Shown here in pieces: positions 10,420 to 43,090 of a DNA stretch of 64,000 nt. The notes beneath the pieces are model-generated. The model was given only the letters and a program-made list of their open reading frames with translations. It was not told the origin of the DNA and searched no databases. The stretch covers positions 1 through 64,000 of the forward strand of contig NZ_WPZL01000013.1 of the NCBI RefSeq assembly GCF_013031245.1, written 5' to 3'. A program made the position numbers and the translations under genes. This stretch comes from Ruegeria lacuscaerulensis. Its GTDB lineage: Bacteria; Pseudomonadota; Alphaproteobacteria; Rhodobacterales; Rhodobacteraceae. Each line of letters begins with the position of its first letter. The stretch's first letter is position 1.

Positions 10420-11929
10420 TGTATTTCCCCGAAGGTTTGCGCATCGGCAGGCGGCGGATCTCTTCCAGCGTCTGCGCATCATAGACGATCACTGCGCCGT
10501 CATCTTCCCAGATCGAGACCAGCGCGTGGCTGCCATCCTTGGTGAATTCCACATGGGCCACTGTCTTGCCGGGCGCGGGGCGCAGAGTCTTTACGATTTC
10601 AAGGCTTTGCTTGTCGATCACATGCATGGCGTCCTTGTTGGGGCCGAAGAACACATCAGCCCAGACATAGGGTGAGTTCTCGTGGCTGCGCATGAAGAAT
10701 CCCGGTCCTTCGGTCTTGATCCGTTTGACGGTTTCCCAGGTTTCCATGTCGATCACCGACACGGTGCCATCGGTCAGGTGCGGTGTGGCCATCACGGTCG
10801 TGTCGCCATGTTGCCACGTGATCCCCGATCCCAGATGTGGCATGCCCGGCAAATCCAGATCAGCCACTTTCTGGCCGATGACCAGATCAATCACCTGACC
10901 GCCCTTTCCGTCACGCGACGCGCCCATGACGTATTCATAACTCTGGTCGAAAAAGAAATCGTCCAGATAGTCGGGTGTGGTGATCTTGCGCACTGGGAAG
11001 GGGTCGGGGTTCTTGAACTGGCCTTCGATACGGAAGTCATGGCCCAACCCGGATTGAGGTGGGTTGTCGCCGTAAAAGACTTCCCAAATCTCGGGGACGT
11101 CTTTCAATGCAAGAACAAAGCTTTCACGCGGCGGTGCTTGGTATACCGCCGAAACGCGGCTGGGAACGCCCTTTTTGCTTTTGACTTCGACGACTTTCGC
11201 GACCGAGAGGTCTTCGGTCGACAGCAGGGTCAGGCTGTTGGGCAGGTAATTCGCCACGGCCACCCATTTGCCGTCGCCAGACATGGCGATGTTGCGGCTG
11301 TTCAGGCCCGCACGTACGCGACCCACCTGTTTCAGCGCCCAGATGTCGTACTTCTGGACCCAGCCATCGCGAGACATGATGAAGACATAGCGGCCATCGG
11401 GGCTGAATTTCGGACCGCCGTGGACAGCGAATGGAGTCTCGAACCGGTCCAGCACCTCGAACGTGTCGCCATCCAGAACGCTGACATGGTGGTCGCCGGT
11501 CTCAACAGCCAGCGTGATGTTCATCGGGTCGCTGGACCAGACAGGCGCGTCTACCGGGGCATAGTCGTCGTCCAGCGTGCGGCTGGCCATGATATCGGCC
11601 TCGCCCCATTCCGGGTCGGTCTCCAGCGGCGATTTCAGCCAGCCCGCCAGTTCCTCGATCTGCAATGCGTCCAACTCATGCGAAAACGCGGGCATCTGCG
11701 TGGCCGTACGGCCTTCGGCAATCACTGAAGCCACGCGCGGGCCGCGCATCCGTTTCAATGTCTCGGGGATCAGGGCCGGGCCGACGCCGCCCAGACGGTT
11801 CTCGCCGTGGCAGGAGGCGCAGTGTTCGGCATAATCTGACGGGGCATCCGCCCATGCGGTACCGGCCAGCAGCAGGGAACAGAGCGTACCGATTTTCAGG
11901 GTGTCAAAAGAACTGATGCGCCGGATCAT
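10376..11929 (-). CDS. nirN: NirN, dihydro-heme d1 dehydrogenase (cytochrome c / d1-propeller)
   Basis: This 517-residue paralogue of NirS has a signal peptide (ending GTAWA), a c-heme site [13 protein letters not shown] and an eight-bladed propeller-type C-terminal domain. NirN catalyses the last step of heme d1 synthesis, dehydrogenation of dihydro-d1, in the periplasm. The chosen ATG (MIRRISSF) follows a GGGGGA site and overlaps nirJ by 26 bases. A start 16 codons upstream was rejected because it disrupts the signal peptide. It lies directly after nirJ, as in other cd1 clusters. Confidence 0.9.
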
Positions 11930-13118
11930 GGCTTTTCCCCCGGAACGGCGTGACCTGCAAGCGCTCGCCCGCATCATCCACGCCGATTTCTTGGTTTGAC
12001 AGATAGCAGGCCGGATCTTCGGCCCAGGGATCGCCGGTCAGTTGCAAGGCCCGGATACGGGTATTGCCGCCGCAGACGTCCTTGAGCTGGCATGCACCGC
12101 AACGCCCTTTCAGCGGGCGCGGGCGGGTGCGCAGCATGGCCAGCATCGGGTCATCGCTGGTCCAGAGCTCGGAGAAGGGTTTGGTCTTCACATTGCCGAC
12201 CGTGTAATCGGACCAGTAGGTATCCGGATGAACTCGGCCCAGATTGTCGATATTGGCCACACCCAAACCGCTGGAATTTCCACCCCATGCGGCCAGATGT
12301 TCGCGCACATGGGCGGCTTTGTCGGCGTCGAAACGCGCGCGGATCCAATTCAGGAAATACCCCGCATCGGCATCATTGTTGCCGGTGACGATGTCCAGAG
12401 GGCGTCCGCCAGAGGCGGCCTCCCACGCGCGTTCCAGCAGCAGATCGAGGCCCTTACGGGTGCGCAGATGTTCGGCGTCTTCGCCCCGGTTTTTGTCACC
12501 GCGACCGGCGTAGACCAGGTGAGACAGGTAAAACTTGTCCACACCTTCGTCATCACAAAGCTGCAACAAGTCAGGCAGATGGTGTTGCGTGCCCTCGGTC
12601 AGGCAAAAGCGCAGACCAACCTTGATGCCGCGCTTTTTGCATTCCCGCACACCCCGCAGGGCGTCGGCAAAGGCACCTTCGACACCGCGGAACCAGTCAT
12701 TGGTGGCTCCGATCCCGTCAAGCGAAATGCCGACATAGTTGAACCCTACATCGGCAATCATGTCGGCGGTTTCGTCGTAAATCCGCGTGCCGTTGGTCGA
12801 CAGCGCCAGCATCGGCACCAGATCGCGGGCGCGTTTGGCGATATCGAAGAAATCGAACCGGTCCAGCGGTTCCCCACCCGAGAGGATCAGGGCCGGGACG
12901 CGAAATTGGCCCAGATCCTCAAGGGTTACCATGGCTTGCTCGTGACTGAGCTCACCCGGGAACGCCACATCCGCCGAGACGGTGTAACAATGGCGGCATT
13001 TCAGATTGCAGCGCCGCGTCAGGTTCCAGATCACCACCGGTTTTACTGGGCCGGGACGGCGTTTGCGCACCGGGGTCGGTTTGACCAGCTGGTGCATATA
13101 TTCGGTCAGGCGGAACAT
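11904..13118 (-). CDS. nirJ: NirJ, radical SAM enzyme of heme d1 synthesis
   Basis: The 404-residue cytoplasmic protein has the radical-SAM motif CNLKCRHC at residues 37-44, LSGGEPL near residue 100, and a C-terminal SPASM-type cysteine cluster ([13 protein letters not shown]). NirJ removes the two propionate side chains of 12,18-didecarboxysiroheme and leaves oxo groups. It begins four bases after nirH ends, in one polycistron. Confidence 0.95.
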
Positions 13119-13122
13119 GATC

Positions 13123-13605
13123 TCAGCCTTTCGCTTTCAGGCGCAGCCCGGTCTTTTTCAGGATGCGCGTGGAATAGAGGATGTCTTTGGCCCGGCAGGC
13201 ATCGCCCAGAATTGCAGTGATCTCGGCGCGCTTTTCTTCGACTTCGCCACGGTCTTTACCGTGGACCATGGCAAACAGGTTATAGGGCCATTCGGGCAGG
13301 GCGCGTGGACGCTCATAACAATGGGTGACAAAAGGCAGGGCACCAATTTGCGCTCCCAGTTCGGCAACGCGGTCGTCATCCACATCCCATACAGTCATTC
13401 CGTTCGACGTCATGCCCAGCTTGTAGTGGTTCGGAGCAGCTGCGATACGACGGATCACACCGCGCGACTTCAACTCTGCCAAACGGATTAGAAACGCATC
13501 TTCATCCATACCCAGATCTTCAGCCACCTGGGCATAGGGGGTAGGGGTCAGGGGCAATCCGCCCTGCAACGCCTCGATGATTTGTCTGTCTGATGCGTTG
13601 ATCAT
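13123..13605 (-). CDS. nirH: NirH, siroheme decarboxylase subunit
   Basis: The 160-residue protein has an N-terminal AsnC/Lrp-like winged helix ([26 protein letters not shown]) and an alpha-beta domain with the [22 protein letters not shown] motif expected for NirD/L/G/H. Together these proteins decarboxylate siroheme to 12,18-didecarboxysiroheme. The ATG overlaps the nirG stop by four bases. The subtype NirH is taken from gene order after nirG. Confidence 0.88.
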
Positions 13606-14051
13606 GCCGCCACCCGGAAGCCGATGAAAAATTCCTGCAGTTTGGGGAAACGGAGGACTTCAATCCCCGTTTCCCGTTCGATGGCATCGGCGGCGGCCTT
13701 GATCCCCTCGGGCGTTTCGGTGGCCAGCACGAACCACATGTTCAGCCGGTGCGTCCGTTCATAATTATGGGCAACTTCCGCATGCGCATTGACTTTGGTC
13801 AGGACGGTTTCGAATTTCTCGGCCGGAACCGCCATGGCGCACAGGCAAAACGCGCCGCCCATAGCTGCTGCGTCGAAAAACGGACCAAAGCGCGTGATCA
13901 CCCGCTCATCCTTCATCCGCGACAGCCGGTCCAAAAGATCACGTTCCGTGAGGCCCAGTTCTTCGGCGACAACGGCATAGGGGCGCGAGGTCAGCGGCAG
14001 GTCATTCTGCATCCGGTTCAGGATCGCGCGGTCAGTGGCGTCCAGTGTCAT
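13602..14051 (-). CDS. nirG: NirG, siroheme decarboxylase subunit
   Basis: The 149-residue Lrp-like protein is paralogous to NirH and NirDL. It has LPLTSRPYAVVAEELGLTERDLLDRL at the N-terminus and the active-site-type stretch HNYERTHRLNMWFVLATE. It acts with NirDL and NirH on siroheme in the cytoplasm. The ATG overlaps the nirDL stop by four bases, continuing the coupled series. Confidence 0.88.
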   Translation of the reverse strand: MTLDATDRAILNRMQNDLPLTSRPYAVVAEELGLTERDLLDRLSRMKDERVITRFGPFFDAAAMGGAFCLCAMAVPAEKFETVLTKVNAHAEVAHNYERTHRLNMWFVLATETPEGIKAAADAIERETGIEVLRFPKLQEFFIGFRVAA

Positions 14052-36200: not shown

Positions 36201-37616
36201 TTACAGTGCCGCGCCGGGTCTCCGGGCGCGCCCGGTTGAGGTATTTTCGATGCATTCGCAAATGGGGAGTTCAATAAAAAACTCCGTACCTTTTCCAAGT
36301 GTACTTTTATAGTCAATCGTACCGCCAAAATGTTCGACAATTTCCCTGGAAATATTCATCCCAAGACCGGTACCTCCCGCATGGCGCTCATCAGATGAAT
36401 CAATTTGCGAAAATCGGTCGAATACTTTGTCCCGGCAGCCCTTGGGAATCCCGATACCTTTGTCCTTTACGAAAATGCGCACGCGGGGACCGGTTTTCTT
36501 GCACCCGACAGTGACTTCACCGCCATCAAAGGAGAATTTGGCAGCGTTGGATATCATGTTGGTCAAAACCTGAAGAAGACGAGATGCGTCGCCTTTGATG
36601 AACACGTCGCTTTTGCCGCGGATGTCTTCTGCTATTTCCACATTGTGGGCGCTTGCATATCCCAGATTGCAGGAAATCGCCTCTCGAACCAGCGCATGAA
36701 CGTCTATTGTTCCCTCACGATAGCTCATTTCACCGGCTTCCATTTTTTGAATGTCCAAAACATCGTTAATCAGCGAAGCAAGGCGTTCACTGTTCTTACT
36801 TGCCAGGTGAACAAGGTTTTCCATTTTATCGGGAATTTCACCCAGCGCACCGGAGTTTATTAAATCAAGCGAACCTTTGATTGATGTCAAAGGTGTCCGC
36901 AGCTCATGACTGACTGTGGAAATGAATTGAGTTTTCGCAATGTAAGCGGCTTTGGTTCTTTCGTGCTCTTCTTTGAGTTTCTCCAGTTGCTCCAGATTCT
37001 TCCGGTAAAGCCTGAGAAACACCAGCGAGCAGTCGATCAGGAAGTACATGACAAAAATGACTGTAAAGAAATGCAGCCAAAGGTCCGACGAAAGCTCGGG
37101 CCGTTCAATCCAAATGTCCTTTACGACAATCACCATGAACGAAACGCCATACATGGACAGACGGACTATCATAGCCCAGACAAACTGGTGGTTGTTCATG
37201 GCCGCAAACAACGCGGCGGCAAACAAGAAGAACAAAGGGGTGAAGTGCCCGCCGGTTGGCTGTTTAAAGGCCACTGAAACGGCATATAAACAAATCGCAG
37301 TTGAGCTGAGTATCGTATTCAGCAGTATCCAAACGACCATCATTGCAATTGCCTTGCGCTGGTCTGGATTCAGACGGGGCACGCGTCTGGCGAGTATCAA
37401 ATCCTGCACTTCGCAAATGAGGATCGTCCCATAAAACAACAAAGCGTTGATTGGATCGAAAAAGAATCCGGTCAGGATCGTTGTGGCCAAAAATATTGCC
37501 TGCCGCTGCCACAAGAGCGCAAAGCTCATGGCAGTGTAATCCTTGATGTTTTGCAGAAGCCGGTCTTCCTGTGCTCCGGTATCCCGGTCCGTCTGCGTCG
37601 CTTCGATGACTGTCAT
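36201..37616 (-). CDS. Multi-TM sensor histidine kinase
   Basis: The 471-residue membrane kinase has five to six hydrophobic segments in residues about 30-200, with no large periplasmic domain. A coiled linker (YRKNLEQLEKLKEEHERTKAAYIAK) follows. The HisKA box is SHELRTPL with phospho-accepting H237, and a HATPase domain has MISNAAKFS, DKGIGIP and GTGLGMNISREIVEHFGG. No receiver domain is present. It is convergent with soxG and divergent from the P450 gene. Two orphan response regulators without a dedicated kinase lie 2-6 kb away and are plausible partners. Confidence 0.88.
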   Translation of the reverse strand: MTVIEATQTDRDTGAQEDRLLQNIKDYTAMSFALLWQRQAIFLATTILTGFFFDPINALLFYGTILICEVQDLILARRVPRLNPDQRKAIAMMVVWILLNTILSSTAICLYAVSVAFKQPTGGHFTPLFFLFAAALFAAMNNHQFVWAMIVRLSMYGVSFMVIVVKDIWIERPELSSDLWLHFFTVIFVMYFLIDCSLVFLRLYRKNLEQLEKLKEEHERTKAAYIAKTQFISTVSHELRTPLTSIKGSLDLINSGALGEIPDKMENLVHLASKNSERLASLINDVLDIQKMEAGEMSYREGTIDVHALVREAISCNLGYASAHNVEIAEDIRGKSDVFIKGDASRLLQVLTNMISNAAKFSFDGGEVTVGCKKTGPRVRIFVKDKGIGIPKGCRDKVFDRFSQIDSSDERHAGGTGLGMNISREIVEHFGGTIDYKSTLGKGTEFFIELPICECIENTSTGRARRPGAAL

Positions 37617-37906
37617 CCCAAAGATTTCATTGCTCGCACTCTCAGCATGTCTTTATCCGAACAATGAGGACGTAGTTGGTCGGAAATGGGTTCACAGTTT
37701 GGCAATAATTCCTCAGTCCGCCGCGCAATTGTTGAGTAGATCAGGGAAGCTCTCGACGAACAAAGGCCGCTATTCGCCACAGCGTATGTGCAAAACCAAT
37801 TTCCAAAAAATCGACGATCTCGTTGCTAAGTTAGACTTTTTCCACATAAATGATCCTAAAGACTGGAGAGGAAACTCGAGGGGACCATGGTTTGACCGCT
37901 GTTGGA

Positions 37907-39262
37907 ATGGCGAAAATGAGACAGTTCGACGTCACCCCTGTTTCGGCAAAACTTGCGGAAAAGCCGGTATCCTTACTTCAGTTTGCAAGGTCTGCCGGCC
38001 GCAACATGCTGGAAGTCATACCGGCAGAGACTTTGCGCCAGACCTATGTTCGCGGTCCGTTGAATATTCACTATATTTGCGACCCGGAAATGATCACCGA
38101 ATTGCTTGTGGGGCAAGGCCGTGCTTTTCCCAAGGCCAAGTTCACAAAGGATATTATCGGGTCAGCGGTGGGTAACGGCCTGATCCTTTCCGAAGGTGAA
38201 AAATGGCGCCAGCAAAGGCGCAGGTATTCCCCTTTGTTTGCGGCCAGAAACCTTCCGGTTCTCGCCCGACACTTTGCTGAAACGGGTGCCGAGGTCGCGA
38301 AATCTTTGGCGGAACACGAAGGTCCTGTAGACGTTGCGCAAGTTGCGCCGGCATCGACTTTGACAAACATTTCCAGAGTGATCTTTTCAGGCAACGAAGA
38401 AGTTAGCTCAGAACAAATTCGTGTGGGGCTGATCGCGTATTTCAACTATATTTCGGATATTTCGCTATTCGACTTGATGGGTTTGCCGAAATGGTTGCCA
38501 CGCAAAAAGTGGCTAATCAGCAAGGCACCAGTCACAGATATGCGCGACCTGGCCCGGCAGGTCATCGCACAACGTCGGTCTGAAAACCGTAGCGAACCGC
38601 AGGACTTCCTGGATTTTATGATTGAGGCCCTGAAAACGGATTTCGAGGACGAAGAGACAACCGTCGACAATCTGTTGACCTTTGTTGTTGCTGGCCATGA
38701 AACCTCGGCCAATGCATTGGCTTGGGGGTATTACCTGCTGGCGTTGAACCCGGATATGCAGAACAGAATTCGCAGTGAGATTCTGTCTGTTCGCCCCCGG
38801 GGGCCAGTGGAATTTGCCGATCTTGAGTCCATGCCGCTGTTGCGGGCGCACATTAAGGAAACACTGCGTCTTTATCCATCAGCCGCATTTTTTGCCAGGG
38901 ATGCGGCTGAAGACATCGAAATCAAGGGTGTAAAGATCGAAAAAGGCGATGCGCTGTTTTATCCTGTCTACTCTTTGCACAGAAACGAGAAGCTGTGGGA
39001 TGCCCCCGCGCAATACCGGCCGGAACGTTTTCTGAATGGTCCTCTGCCTCGGGGCCAGTATATCCCATTTGGAGATGGCCCCAGGATTTGCATCGGCGCC
39101 CAGTACGCCGAGACGGAAATCATGGTTTTGATGGCGTCAGTGCTCCGTCGTATCAACTTTTCATTTGCAGATGCGCAAATGCCGGAACCGGTTTTGACAT
39201 TTACGATGCGCACCAGCGGACCACTCATACTTAACGCTGAACGAGTTCCGGAAGGTTTGTGA
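37907..39262 (+). CDS. Cytochrome P450 (fatty-acid/terpenoid hydroxylase-like)
   Basis: The 451-residue protein has the P450 I-helix motif AGHETSA (near residue 262), the K-helix ExxR in KETLRLYPSA (near 317), and the heme-thiolate loop FGDGPRICIG (Cys near 393). Features such as RDAAEDIEIKGVKIEKG resemble CYP4/CYP102/CYP110-like monooxygenases that act on fatty chains; this is inference. A longer frame back to 37850 is open but has no ribosome site, and the exact start is unclear. No ferredoxin or reductase gene is adjacent. It sits in the signalling patch with a LuxI-type synthase, which raises the idea of signal or acyl-chain modification. Confidence 0.86.
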   Translation: MAKMRQFDVTPVSAKLAEKPVSLLQFARSAGRNMLEVIPAETLRQTYVRGPLNIHYICDPEMITELLVGQGRAFPKAKFTKDIIGSAVGNGLILSEGEKWRQQRRRYSPLFAARNLPVLARHFAETGAEVAKSLAEHEGPVDVAQVAPASTLTNISRVIFSGNEEVSSEQIRVGLIAYFNYISDISLFDLMGLPKWLPRKKWLISKAPVTDMRDLARQVIAQRRSENRSEPQDFLDFMIEALKTDFEDEETTVDNLLTFVVAGHETSANALAWGYYLLALNPDMQNRIRSEILSVRPRGPVEFADLESMPLLRAHIKETLRLYPSAAFFARDAAEDIEIKGVKIEKGDALFYPVYSLHRNEKLWDAPAQYRPERFLNGPLPRGQYIPFGDGPRICIGAQYAETEIMVLMASVLRRINFSFADAQMPEPVLTFTMRTSGPLILNAERVPEGL

Positions 39263-39313
39263 GGTCACAACTGTCGCGCCCGGCGCAATGTAAGTGTCAC
39301 GTTTTAGCGTAGC

Positions 39314-40447
39314 CTATTGTTTGTCCAGATAAGTGCTTTCGCCATAAAGCTCGCGCATTACTGTGTCGAACAATCTTCCAGCACCCTTTTCTTTTTGGAT
39401 GGGCTCCGGCGCGGAACACAAACCGGATTGGGGTGCTGCATGCATTCTGGTTGCTCCCTCTCGATTGCTTAATCCGTCGATGGCTTTTTTAAAGGCAGCG
39501 AACGCGCCAGCTTTCGTAATTGAGCGCATCGACACCGGAGCACTCACCAACGCCTTGAGAGGCACCGACCCGCAATGGTTGCCGAGGACCGTTCTTAACT
39601 TCAGGTTGAGACGATGTTCGGTCGGGAGCATGTCCGTGCAATCCCGTCCATGTGTGACAACAAGAAAAACACCGCTTCCACGGTAAGAGAACACTGCCCT
39701 GGCTTTCTTCGAAGTCCTTTCTATGCACTCCGCAACATCCGAAATGACACGTCGAAAGTTACCAAAGCCATTCAGATCGTAGTGGTAGTCAGCGTTCTGA
39801 AGTTTGACAGCCGTAACCCAGGAATCACACCGACAGCTCCTTGAGAGCTGCTCGACGTAATTGTCGAATTCGATATATCGCAAACACCGGTCCAGCCCGT
39901 CGATAGACAGCGGATCTTCAAAGCTGAACTGCTGATGAAAATCCAATTCTTCGCGAAGGTTTTTTATCGAGGCAGAAGATGTCTGCGTCCTGATGCGTTC
40001 CATCATCAGCAGATGAGCCGCATTCATGCGACTACGCAGTTCGAAAAAATCAAAGGGCTTTGTGATGTAGTCGAAAGCACCTTCTAAAAAGGCCTCTTCG
40101 ATGTATTTTCGGTCGTCCATTGCCGTCAGCATTATCACCGGCGTTTCCAGATTTCCTGGCATGCTTCGAATTTGCCTAAGTAACTGAATACCGCTGGTTT
40201 CAGGCATCTGAATGTCCACCAGCAGACAGTCGAACGGGGCTTCCGCGGCCTCGATCTGTCTGAGCGCTTCGGAGGCTGAATCGGCGACCGAAACGTAGCA
40301 GTTTTCGAGCTCGGGAAGCGCCGACTGGAGTAAATTGAGAATGCTTGGATCGTCATCGACGGCCAGTACATTAAGCGTCGCCCTTCTGAGAGCACGCATT
40401 TCCAACTTGCTTTGGAATCGATCATTTCCGGGGTTGGAATGTTTCAT
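39314..40447 (-). CDS. Response regulator with degenerate GGDEF-like output domain (RR1)
   Basis: The 377-residue protein has a complete receiver domain (acidic DDD at 31-33, phospho-Asp D78 in LLVDIQMP, T108, K130). After a helical linker comes a domain of about 170 residues that looks like a decayed diguanylate cyclase. The GG(D/E)EF site reads RGSGVF (256-261), preceded by ARAVFSY. It lacks the catalytic acidic residue. It is clearly paralogous to the regulator at 42164. A later ATG at MRALRR (residue 17) is also possible. It may bind another protein or a nucleotide without making c-di-GMP. Confidence 0.82.
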   Translation of the reverse strand: MKHSNPGNDRFQSKLEMRALRRATLNVLAVDDDPSILNLLQSALPELENCYVSVADSASEALRQIEAAEAPFDCLLVDIQMPETSGIQLLRQIRSMPGNLETPVIMLTAMDDRKYIEEAFLEGAFDYITKPFDFFELRSRMNAAHLLMMERIRTQTSSASIKNLREELDFHQQFSFEDPLSIDGLDRCLRYIEFDNYVEQLSRSCRCDSWVTAVKLQNADYHYDLNGFGNFRRVISDVAECIERTSKKARAVFSYRGSGVFLVVTHGRDCTDMLPTEHRLNLKLRTVLGNHCGSVPLKALVSAPVSMRSITKAGAFAAFKKAIDGLSNREGATRMHAAPQSGLCSAPEPIQKEKGAGRLFDTVMRELYGESTYLDKQ

Positions 40448-40856
40448 GACTGATGAACCGCTTTTGATCCGTTTAACGGAGCCAGCCTAGGAAACGAGTA
40501 GGACGAAACAGCGGCATAAAAGAAGAAAAACCACATGGAATTGGGTTTTTTCTTGACCTTATTTTGACGTTATTGACCATTAAGCCAATTATATTCTTTC
40601 AGAAGTTCCGTTTTATTCACACCGAGTTTCGGACATGTATTGTGTCATCTGATTGGTTTTGAAGACCGCAGCGCGTAACCAAAACAACGTTGTGGCTATG
40701 ACAAGAGCAGGACCGAAAAGAGTGTTCCTCGCCCCTCGTGTCATCAAGAACCATTTCGACATTTCGGCCAAGTTGCGCCAAATACGCCAAACTGTAAGAA
40801 CAACTCATCGTATAGGAGTTTGATTGGGACTGGAGGTTGGGCAACTTTCAGACGCG
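40448..40856. promoter_or_regulatory. AT-rich intergenic region upstream of RR1 with three phased TTGAC repeats
   Basis: This region of 409 bases is strikingly AT-rich in 40500-40620. It holds three TTGAC pentamers starting at 40553, 40564 and 40573, spaced 11 and 9 bases, that is, about one helical turn apart. They lie 106-130 bases upstream of RR1. A 75-codon minus-strand frame at 40617-40844 has no recognisable feature. The repeats could be a regulator-binding array, but no factor can be named. Confidence 0.4.
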
Positions 40857-41606
40857 TTAGCCTGTCTGATTATTGATGTTGAACAAAACCGACTGACTTA
40901 CGGTACCATCAATCGAGAATTTTGCTCCAACGGGCGAGGCCCCAACGCCTAGTCGCCGGGACCATCGCGCCCAGACGGAAGGAACGATTCCGAGTATTCT
41001 GGAGGCTCCACCTTGTTTCGCAGCAACAGTCATTTGGTGAAACAATTCCTGCTGAACGACGAGCCTGCGTGCAGAAGAAACTCCGCCCGTCACAAAAAAC
41101 CGCGAAGCTTCCCAGATACTCGGTTTAACCGGTGCGTCAAAATACAGAATATCGGTTGGCATTCCCCTGAGAATGCCTCTCTGCGCGTCGCGCAACATGT
41201 AACTGTATACGCCGCATCGCGCAGTGCTTGGCAGCAGACGCACCCCGCCAAGTATCTCACCGAATTCATGAAGCACGACCCACTGACATGCCGGAGTATC
41301 GTATTGGTCGAATTCCATCCCGTCGGCTTCGCCAACCTGCCACTTTAAGCGATCTATAAATATGGACTTTCGCGTCTCAAGATATTTGGCAAGCAGCGTG
41401 CCGTGCTCATGAATGTTTCGAAAGCTCATGGTGGTCGCGCGAATATCGCCAAGCTCGCCCCGAGGCGCTGACAGTTCGCGCTCGAGTGTAAACAGCTTGG
41501 GTTGCACCAATGAATTTGGCGCAGTTGGTGCATCGTTGGCAGGGTTCAGGTCCGGAATAACTTCCGGCACTGAGAACGCCTGGTCGTACCTGAGTGGTCG
41601 GTCCAT
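40857..41606 (-). CDS. LuxI-type acyl-homoserine-lactone synthase
   Basis: The 249-residue protein keeps the invariant LuxI residues with normal spacing: R79, F83 and W89 (ETRKSIFIDRLKW), D100 and D103 (EFDQYDTP), R123 (GVRLLPST), and E166 and R169 (IWEASRF). It should make an N-acyl-homoserine lactone from SAM and acyl-ACP or acyl-CoA. A 60-residue N-terminal extension precedes the usual start region. An internal ATG at 41429 would give a standard 190-residue LuxI but has no ribosome site. No LuxR-type receptor gene is adjacent. It lies between two paralogous response regulators. Confidence 0.87.
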   Translation of the reverse strand: MDRPLRYDQAFSVPEVIPDLNPANDAPTAPNSLVQPKLFTLERELSAPRGELGDIRATTMSFRNIHEHGTLLAKYLETRKSIFIDRLKWQVGEADGMEFDQYDTPACQWVVLHEFGEILGGVRLLPSTARCGVYSYMLRDAQRGILRGMPTDILYFDAPVKPSIWEASRFFVTGGVSSARRLVVQQELFHQMTVAAKQGGASRILGIVPSVWARWSRRLGVGASPVGAKFSIDGTVSQSVLFNINNQTG

Positions 41607-42163
41607 ATTTTACTCATATATTCGCCACACTTATGACAAGATTCAACTCATCGAGTCTACAACCTTATGCAGTAGTCTTCAGAATTGCCGGATAAGTGTG
41701 TCCAATTCACATCCCTCAAACAGACATGGCTGAAGGGGGGGCTGACCCTTTCATTTATCTGCGGGCTTGTTTCCGCCACTGGCAGTTCTTCCAATATCCG
41801 ACCCAGCTTTCAACGCGTTGAAAAATTTTATCTATTGATCATTTCCTCCGGATAAGCGTTTAGGTTGTCTAACCTCCCGCTATTGGATCAAAAACGAGTG
41901 CAGCTTTTTGTGCTGTGCGAAACAAAGCGGTTTCAGCGCCATGTAAATCAGAGAAACCCTGCGTTCGACGCGCCGGGTTGCCACTGGCAAATTGATTGAA
42001 TGCAAAAATAATGCGCAGACATAAGGAGGCCCCTCTTAGGCCACCCTTTTGCCGCCTTTTTCCGGCAACATGGAAAAATCCTGAGAGTTTACGCACCAAT
42101 CAACCGTTGCTCTTTGTCTGCAATGCCCAGCGGTTTTTTGGTGTCAAAGGTTGGTGAATAGTT
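41607..42163. other. Long intergenic region between the LuxI-type gene and RR2
   Basis: This gap of 557 bases between divergent genes should hold both promoters. Visible elements are a 9-bp inverted repeat (CACACTTAT at 41626 and ATAAGTGTG at 41692) near the synthase start and a dyad AGGTT-GTCT-AACCT at 41862-41875. Short frames here have no coding support. No canonical 20-bp lux box was recognised by eye. Confidence 0.45.
41626..41700. repeat. 9-bp inverted repeat upstream of the LuxI-type gene
   Basis: CACACTTAT (41626-41634) and ATAAGTGTG (41692-41700) are exact inverted copies separated by 57 bases. They lie 20-94 bases upstream of the synthase ATG. They could be paired operator half-sites; a hairpin is also possible but the loop is long. 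Confidence 0.45.
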
Positions 42164-43090
42164 ATGCGTATACTTGCTGTAGACGACGACCCCAGCATCC
42201 TGGAACTGCTAGACAGTGTTCTGGCTGCGTTCGGGTACAAAGATGTCGTCACCGCACGAAGCGGCCGCGAAGCCCTTCAGATCCTGTCAGAACCGACAGA
42301 AGCATTCGACTGTTTGCTTCTTGATGTGCAGATGCCGCAGATGAACGGAATTAATCTGTGCGAAGAAGCCCGCAAGATTCCTGGCTACCTGTACACGCCT
42401 ATAATCATGGTCACCGCCATGGTGCAGAAACAGTACATTGACGAAGCATTCGAAGCGGGTGCGACAGACTATGTCACAAAGCCTTTTGAATTTTCTGATC
42501 TGAAGCAAAGGCTTTCGGACGCTTACAGGATGGCAGCGGAACGCAGAGCCGCGATCGAGGTGATGGAAGCTGATGAGCACGCGTGGCAGGATGCAGAGGC
42601 CAATCAAGACCTTCTTCTGAGTGACCCGTTTTACTTAGGAGATTTGCCCGGATGCATTGGATTGGCCGAGTTCGAGAACTACGTAATTCAGCTTTCGACG
42701 ATGCATGCGACGGCTTCGAAAATCGTGGCGGTAAAAGTCACTGACATCGAGCAAATCTACAAGTCGGGCAGTTCCGGCGAATTTCGTGACTCCCTGGCGT
42801 CGGCTGGAACCGCGCTCCTCTCGGCTACTCAGGAAGGACGCAAGGTCGCGACGTATTGGGGCAATGGCGTATTCCTGCTTGTCCACGACAATCAAAAGGA
42901 ATTTAGCGCAGAAAAGGCCCTAAACCCGTTGCCAGGAAATCCAAAAGAAGTTGGCGAAAGTGCTATTGCTTGCCAAGTAGGGGAAGAAGTTGTCCTGAAT
43001 GCCACCTCCAAAATGGAAGCATTGTTTTTGATCGACAAGGCTGTGGAATTGGCCGAAACCCGCGACGCCCAAGTTGCCAGGTTTGGCTAA
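42164..43090 (+). CDS. Response regulator with degenerate GGDEF-like output domain (RR2)
   Basis: The 308-residue protein has an intact receiver domain (DDD at 7-9, phospho-Asp D54 in LLLDVQMP, T84, K106). Its C-terminal domain is paralogous to that of RR1. The GGDEF-site position reads WGNGVF (232-237), and the end ALFLIDKAVELAETRDAQV recalls the last helix of GGDEF domains. The catalytic acidic residues are missing. It is divergent from the LuxI-type gene. The partner kinase is unknown; the kinase at 36.2 kb is the nearest candidate. Confidence 0.82.
   Translation: MRILAVDDDPSILELLDSVLAAFGYKDVVTARSGREALQILSEPTEAFDCLLLDVQMPQMNGINLCEEARKIPGYLYTPIIMVTAMVQKQYIDEAFEAGATDYVTKPFEFSDLKQRLSDAYRMAAERRAAIEVMEADEHAWQDAEANQDLLLSDPFYLGDLPGCIGLAEFENYVIQLSTMHATASKIVAVKVTDIEQIYKSGSSGEFRDSLASAGTALLSATQEGRKVATYWGNGVFLLVHDNQKEFSAEKALNPLPGNPKEVGESAIACQVGEEVVLNATSKMEALFLIDKAVELAETRDAQVARFG

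Follow-up and report, generated by a model that had tools for sequence, protein, structure and literature searches.

Within a 64,000-nucleotide stretch of the Ruegeria lacuscaerulensis genome (contig NZ_WPZL01000013.1, positions 1 to 64,000; hereafter the window), five neighbouring genes encode a multi-transmembrane (multi-TM) histidine kinase (HK), a cytochrome P450, a LuxI-family acyl-homoserine lactone (AHL) synthase and two response regulators (RR1 and RR2). Judged from sequence comparison, the cassette is probably, on balance, a LuxR-independent acyl-signal circuit that is read by the membrane kinase. In such a circuit, (i) LuxI would make an AHL, probably long-chain by analogy with other roseobacters, (ii) the kinase would sense the AHL in or at the membrane, (iii) the kinase would control the phosphorylation of both receiver proteins, (iv) the GGDEF-like output domain of these would most likely bind a nucleotide or a protein partner and not DNA, because its catalytic motif is lost, and (v) in part of the family only, the P450 would oxidise the acyl chain of the signal or of its precursor. 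The route from signal to kinase to regulator is chemically possible, because the presumed catalytic residues of LuxI, the histidine and ATP-binding boxes of the kinase and the Asp and Lys of the receivers are all kept.

The gene families of the cassette travel together. A scan with the window's LuxI yields 80 loci, each taken with at most 7 kb of flank per side, and clustering of their 932 open reading frames (ORFs) places LuxI in 65 loci, HK in 57, RR in 45 (68 members) and P450 in 24, the next family reaching 9; a direct search with the kinase sensor finds HK in 69 of the 80. The same families recur, in rearranged order, in more than 20 genera, and because the distance and orientation of the genes vary, the genes stay linked without forming a fixed operon. 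Among 295 genomes of the family Rhodobacteraceae, nearly one per genus, the LuxI family occurs in 149, the HK sensor in 39 and the RR output profile in at least 70. The RR output family is present in 39/39 HK genomes and in at least 31 of the 256 others (Fisher 1e-29; with scoring limited to 11 candidates per genome, absences are less sure than presences). The window's LuxI family is present in 34/39 HK genomes versus 115/256 others, a pattern to be expected of a LuxI with two kinds of partner, and a PF00765 match over the cut-off is found in all 39 HK genomes, some of the weak ones perhaps being other GNATs. When the search was widened to the class, 2 of 385 genomes had the kinase, namely that of the window and a second from the same family. 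An earlier note on this DNA, made from the letters alone, had proposed that the five genes form one system, and their co-occurrence in other genomes is strongly borne out by the clustering of loci and by the genome-level survey. The distance correlation between LuxI and HK (r = 0.90 over 52 loci) is not counted as evidence, as shared species history gives the same.

At the loci of this LuxI, kinase and LuxR exclude one another. Across 109 LuxI loci (the 80 and 29 more), HK occurs without LuxR at 86 and LuxR without HK at 15, neither is seen at 8 and both at none (Fisher 5e-13, a descriptive value that ignores relatedness). Among the loci with neither, the HK of L007 and L009 lies just past the stretch examined (both are labelled HK in the LuxI tree), five loci are short or one-sided, and only L036 lacks both genes despite full flanks. 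A profile from 21 LuxR seeds, run over all ORFs, agrees with the count, and its sole match at HK loci is marginal (L099, E 9e-4, more than 4 kb away). In the window itself, tblastn with the six LuxRs of the same genome as queries finds no LuxR; the earlier note had remarked on the lack of such a receptor among the five genes. A LuxR hidden at the HK–LuxI loci was considered and rejected, the six-query tblastn and the 21-seed profile together giving only the marginal match in L099. The genome has four LuxI-type genes; LuxR lies within 0.5 kb (domain to domain) of three of them, and the window's luxI is the one without. On a quick LuxI tree with several weak branches (112 rows, 103 different proteins; L034 omitted for a stop in the translated stretch), one clade holds 14 LuxR-paired enzymes together with three that are HK-paired and two that are unassigned, and the most parsimonious history has three changes of partner.

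The kinase and the regulators might instead act upstream, sensing some other cue and controlling the expression of luxI or feeM (the gene of another acyl-amide synthase), while the AHL is read by a solo LuxR elsewhere. This arrangement seems unlikely, at perhaps one chance in a few: the genome does contain three LuxRs without an adjoining luxI (contigs C30, C22 and C43), LuxR-type genes lie near the kinase in L128 and L130, and a conserved element precedes luxI, but control by a cue does not predict exclusion, and none of the 109 loci has both LuxR and HK, though 15 HK-free loci of the same LuxI family have LuxR. The LuxR-type genes of L128 and L130 also complicate a simple alternative between LuxR and kinase.

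A kinase-read circuit gains further support from the synthases that stand beside the kinase. There are 42 HK places in the genome set (two fragments in genome G212 counted as one), and LuxI of the window's family lies within 6 kb of the kinase at 27. The remaining 15 were examined at 13 (G159 and G212 being left out), and at 6 of the 13 the kinase is accompanied by a FeeM-type N-acyl amino acid synthase, each well over the PF21926 cut-off (116-139 bits versus 27). FeeM occurs in 7/295 genomes, in a single copy each, and six of these are the copies beside HK. Near the seventh, in G010, neither HK nor RR is seen, an argument against exclusive linkage of FeeM and HK; this FeeM gene (L178/L182, G010:C12:33508-33972) precedes a methyltransferase-like ORF (E 3e-11), and an ORF with a Trp_halogenase match (E 2e-16) lies about 3 kb further along. 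On the HK tree, kinases with a FeeM partner occupy two separate positions among those with a LuxI partner.

A methyltransferase adjoins FeeM at all six HK loci. In L126 and L130 it is a class I S-adenosylmethionine (SAM)-dependent methyltransferase by Pfam, in L124 and L127 a homologue of these in one open frame with FeeM, and in L122 and L123 a membrane methyltransferase between HK and FeeM, over the PEMT cut-off and just below that of ICMT. A search at E 1e-20 detects none of these methyltransferases in the 80 LuxI loci or in the remaining 7 examined HK loci. Plasmids of Loktanella salsilacus carry HK, methyltransferase, FeeM, SAM methyltransferase, TetR and efflux genes, but this FeeM is not independent of that in G006, because the two are 99.4% identical. 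In Sulfitobacter faviae and Sulfitobacter sp. OXR-159, a methyltransferase and a GNAT 58-61% identical to the FeeM of L126 accompany the kinase. On one of the Loktanella plasmids (plas2, L186, 6444-8178), FeeM is annotated as 'acyl-homoserine-lactone synthase' and sits between two methyltransferases beside the kinase, FeeM and one methyltransferase neighbour having the locus tags KBK07_RS17075 and KBK07_RS17080; the annotation is likely wrong, and the locus is a candidate for N-acyl amino acid methyl ester (NAME) synthesis. The same locus also encodes, upstream of the cassette (1-638), an Hpt-domain protein together with a response regulator, a hint of a phosphorelay.

NAMEs are reported from Roseovarius and Loktanella strains, those of Loktanella being glycine esters; in the available account, AHL receptors are not activated by them and one is terminally hydroxylated (PMC6296433). 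Among the known producers are Roseovarius tolerans EL-164, Roseovarius sp. D12_1.68 and Loktanella F13, F14 and D3. According to the available text of a later paper, no candidate NAME synthase gene had been found (PMC11580390). The sequences predict a link between the HK-adjoining FeeM genes and these compounds. Tentatively, and with somewhat less than even confidence, the whole HK family may comprise membrane receptors for the acyl-amide signals that LuxI-like enzymes produce, with FeeM plus a methyltransferase (class I SAM-dependent in one case, PEMT/ICMT-like and membrane-bound in the other) replacing LuxI at two points of the HK tree, and with the AHL of the window being oxidised by the P450 and answered through the paired dead GGDEF regulators.

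The sensor of the kinase spans ∼207 aa and has five clear hydrophobic segments by hydropathy, with a likely sixth. Downstream of it, Pfam recognises HisKA and HATPase_c alone, and a receiver domain of its own is absent. His237 and the N- and G-box residues are invariant in 38 aligned kinases. The window's genome also carries another kinase of the HK family (34% in the sensor) on an 8.8-kb contig (L121, G000:C71, 1889-8604), with its own pseudo-GGDEF regulator and, near the contig end, a gene whose sole recognised domain is GerE; no synthase is seen on that contig.

The two regulators are paralogous, as the earlier note had it, with 34% identity between them, and in each the phosphoacceptor Asp and a conserved Lys are intact (D54 and K106 in RR2). 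Pfam recognises no DNA-binding domain in RR1 or RR2. The further claim that their output domain is a degenerate GGDEF fares less evenly. Pfam gives no GGDEF match on either protein, and YxGxGVFL replaces the GGDEF motif in both, so that the GG(D/E)EF of an active diguanylate cyclase is not present. The C-terminal domain is conserved in 33 aligned relatives, in which the two glycines of YxGxGVFL are the sole invariant residues, and 3/33 output domains weakly match GGDEF when searched singly (best E 0.0053). Against solved structures, the output profile has six matches, three of them diguanylate cyclase or GGDEF chains (E 0.14-1.2) and the rest chance. As these are weak, the profile was aligned by hhalign with 18 GGDEF domains. 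The 123 collinear columns have P = 1.3e-4 but a probability of only 54%, against P = 0.38 for the kinase sensor, a membrane domain used for rough control. On sequence grounds, a degenerate GGDEF fold is therefore supported, if weakly.

The P450 is a variable part of the cassette. Haem-binding and ExxR motifs can be read from its sequence. Its nearest solved relatives are a mixed set (a putative P450, the plant carotene hydroxylase LUTEIN DEFICIENT 5, cholesterol 24-hydroxylase, CYP3A enzymes and BM3) and so do not fix its substrate. The subfamily (at least 58% identity, other listed matches having at most 40%) occurs in 8/295 genomes, all eight of them with HK (Fisher 5e-8). It lies near HK in G000 (the window's genome), G031, G062 and G165 and 11 kb off in G092, on another contig than HK in G277 and G087, and 2.2 Mb off in G104. 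On a Sulfitobacter pontiacus plasmid, the one viewed of seven matches of this type, the order is LuxI, HK, P450, the last being 60% identical to the window's.

For the Rhodobacteraceae strain MOLA 401, the available text of a 2017 paper describes poly-hydroxylated AHLs and proposes a P450 as their cause (PMC5479921). Oxidation of the signal's acyl chain is a plausible role here, the subfamily being confined to HK genomes, and a reasonable guess because of that proposal and of the P450 beside LuxI and HK in S. pontiacus; the step would be optional, because 31/39 HK genomes are without this subfamily. The P450 might alternatively make the sensed molecule itself, an oxidised fatty acid or lipid, in a metabolic-signalling module whose LuxI product is a separate output. 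Its confinement to HK genomes (8/8) would suit such a module, which we nevertheless consider improbable: most HK genomes do without the P450, and LuxI or FeeM is the commoner partner of the kinase, at 33/42 places.

The LuxI of the window scores 58.6 bits against Autoind_synth (cut-off 24), and among the 80 loci it is closest to Ruegeria (81% to R. atlantica HKCCD6218). Residues R79, F83, W89, E98, D100, D103, R123, E166 and R169, presumably the active-site and catalytic ones, are identical in every LuxI row with a letter there (109 rows aligned) and line up with solved AHL synthases. An AAGTGTG element lies 26 nt before luxI in 14/15 aligned Ruegeria-type sequences, the window counted. In the window, within 41607-41714, it forms facing arms (CACACTT at 41626-41632, AAGTGTG at 41694-41700), the sole two such heptamers in the 64 kb, and no CtrA-type site (TTAA-N7-TTAA) is found between 36001 and 43300. 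Elsewhere, two same-orientation LuxI genes of this family lie less than 1 kb apart (G114:C247:1694-3629 and G191:C11:437819-439764), probably as tandem duplicates; one of the G191 copies has two stops.

Table 1. The HK–LuxI cassette and its divergent intergenic region, in window coordinates.
Feature	Position	Strand	Basis
HK, membrane histidine kinase, 471 aa	36201..37616	-	Pfam HisKA + HATPase_c
Cytochrome P450, 470 aa	37850..39262	+	Pfam P450
RR1: receiver domain and putative degenerate GGDEF-like output	39314..40447	-	Pfam Response_reg, alignment
LuxI-family AHL synthase, N-terminal extension, active-site residues kept	40857..41606	-	Pfam Autoind_synth
Divergent luxI/RR2 intergenic region	41607..42163	.	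conserved AAGTGTG element
RR2: receiver domain and putative degenerate GGDEF-like output, RR1 paralogue	42164..43090	+	Pfam Response_reg, alignment

The ORF list and Pfam confirm the positions and identities of the five genes (Table 1) as first noted, and the GC profile confirms the low guanine-plus-cytosine (GC) content noted with them: the 5.27-Mb genome has ∼0.50 GC in 36201-43090 versus 0.594 elsewhere in the window, and the lowest-GC 6.9 kb of the window, scanned in 100-base steps, starts at 36201. Low GC, together with flanking genes that differ in other genomes, could speak for a chance neighbourhood or a recent AT-rich island of unrelated genes. Such an origin is scarcely credible, given the recurrence of the same families in rearranged order across genera; moreover, the cassette genes are below the flanking ORFs in GC at 51/51 testable loci of the 80, so low GC is no sign of recent arrival, and the recent island was rejected on this ground. 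In the window, the flanks hold sarcosine oxidase, Ldh2, DUF3726 and a 561-aa protein, which are not found in the 80 LuxI loci except in L086 (three of them) and L096 (a weak sarcosine-oxidase match). In L086 (Lutimaribacter saemankumensis, ∼10452-13700), the Ldh2, DUF3726 and 561-aa genes lie near the cassette as in the window, which suggests a shared insertion neighbourhood.

Several observations weigh against a kinase-read acyl signal. The LuxR-paired LuxIs mostly form one clade, and loci and genomes are related, so that the Fisher values overstate independence. Exclusion is limited to LuxI loci: L128 and L130, where LuxR-type genes lie near the kinase, have no LuxI, nor has L121, with its gene of the lone GerE domain near HK. 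Neither synthase is seen near HK at 9/42 places (7 of them examined). The sensor has no significant match in Pfam or among solved structures, its profile giving a single chance match at E 0.53. RR is not seen at 14/69 HK loci of the 80-locus set, within the stretch examined, and none is annotated in the viewed plasmid stretches of S. pontiacus (within 7 kb), S. faviae and OXR-159; its absence from non-HK genomes is perhaps overstated by the number of candidates scored.

In the LuxM/LuxN and AinS/AinR systems of Vibrio, the AHL receptor is a multi-TM membrane kinase and not a LuxR. The cassette resembles them in having a multi-TM sensor kinase adjoining an AHL synthase, but its synthase is of the LuxI type (Autoind_synth), unlike LuxM and AinS, and its kinase is no hybrid, unlike LuxN and AinR. 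Compared with LuxI/LuxR quorum sensing, the synthase type and active site fit, whereas a linked LuxR is missing from the window and, L099 being marginal, from the 86 HK loci. The nearest published parallel for the output of RR1 and RR2, by architecture, is LqsR: the available description of the Lqs (LqsA/LqsS/LqsR) and PhcX systems has a signal synthase, a membrane kinase and a response regulator with a degenerate GGDEF-fold output, for which, in LqsR, cyclase activity was not detected (PMC10653808). LqsA, unlike the synthase here, is pyridoxal phosphate (PLP)-dependent. In other genomes, FeeM (PF21926) and a methyltransferase beside the same kinase family recall the NAME-producing roseobacters as they are described in the available texts (PMC6296433, PMC11580390, PMC9654057), the window having LuxI in that place.

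Orphan luxI genes beside a histidine kinase have been described before. In its main text, the survey of Cude and Buchan (2013) of 38 genomes reports an orphan luxI (I-delta) beside a histidine kinase in topologies H, I and J, in Ruegeria, Sulfitobacter, Roseovarius and other roseobacters; the kinases are at most 26% identical to LuxN, and a LuxN-like two-component circuit is proposed (PMC3824088). The loci here agree with these topologies by description, not by locus tags; L045 is Ruegeria conchae TW15, and 'Ruegeria sp. TW15' is given there as topology J. The same main text has no occurrence of P450 and, as far as it is available, neither an exclusion test nor a FeeM swap; HK/REC and HK/RR are among the labels in the legend of its figure 2, so that the figure may show some regulator neighbours. 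Novelty is thus limited by the luxI–kinase pairs and LuxN-like circuit already set out in 2013. The earlier note, which knew of no described system with this set, was right only in part, given that paper and the hydroxylation of AHL chains by a P450 proposed in 2017 (PMC5479921). As far as the literature was searched, the additions here are the LuxR exclusion, the P450 and pseudo-GGDEF parts (subject to what the 2013 figure draws) and the FeeM-methyltransferase swap. In that search, which leaves many subscription papers outside, no later test of orphan luxI-HK pairs was found and no paper that brings together FeeM, luxI, quorum sensing and response regulator; the available text of one paper mentions both an N-acyl amino acid synthase and a histidine kinase (PMC8776678).

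If the proposed circuit is true, the roseobacters, which are abundant marine bacteria, would have an acyl-signal pathway free of LuxR, and a group of orphan luxI genes would be explained. The role of the dead GGDEF output would then be the same question as for LqsR (PMC10653808). The swap of synthases, for its part, may lead to the genes still lacking for a class of marine metabolites that is known but unexplained.

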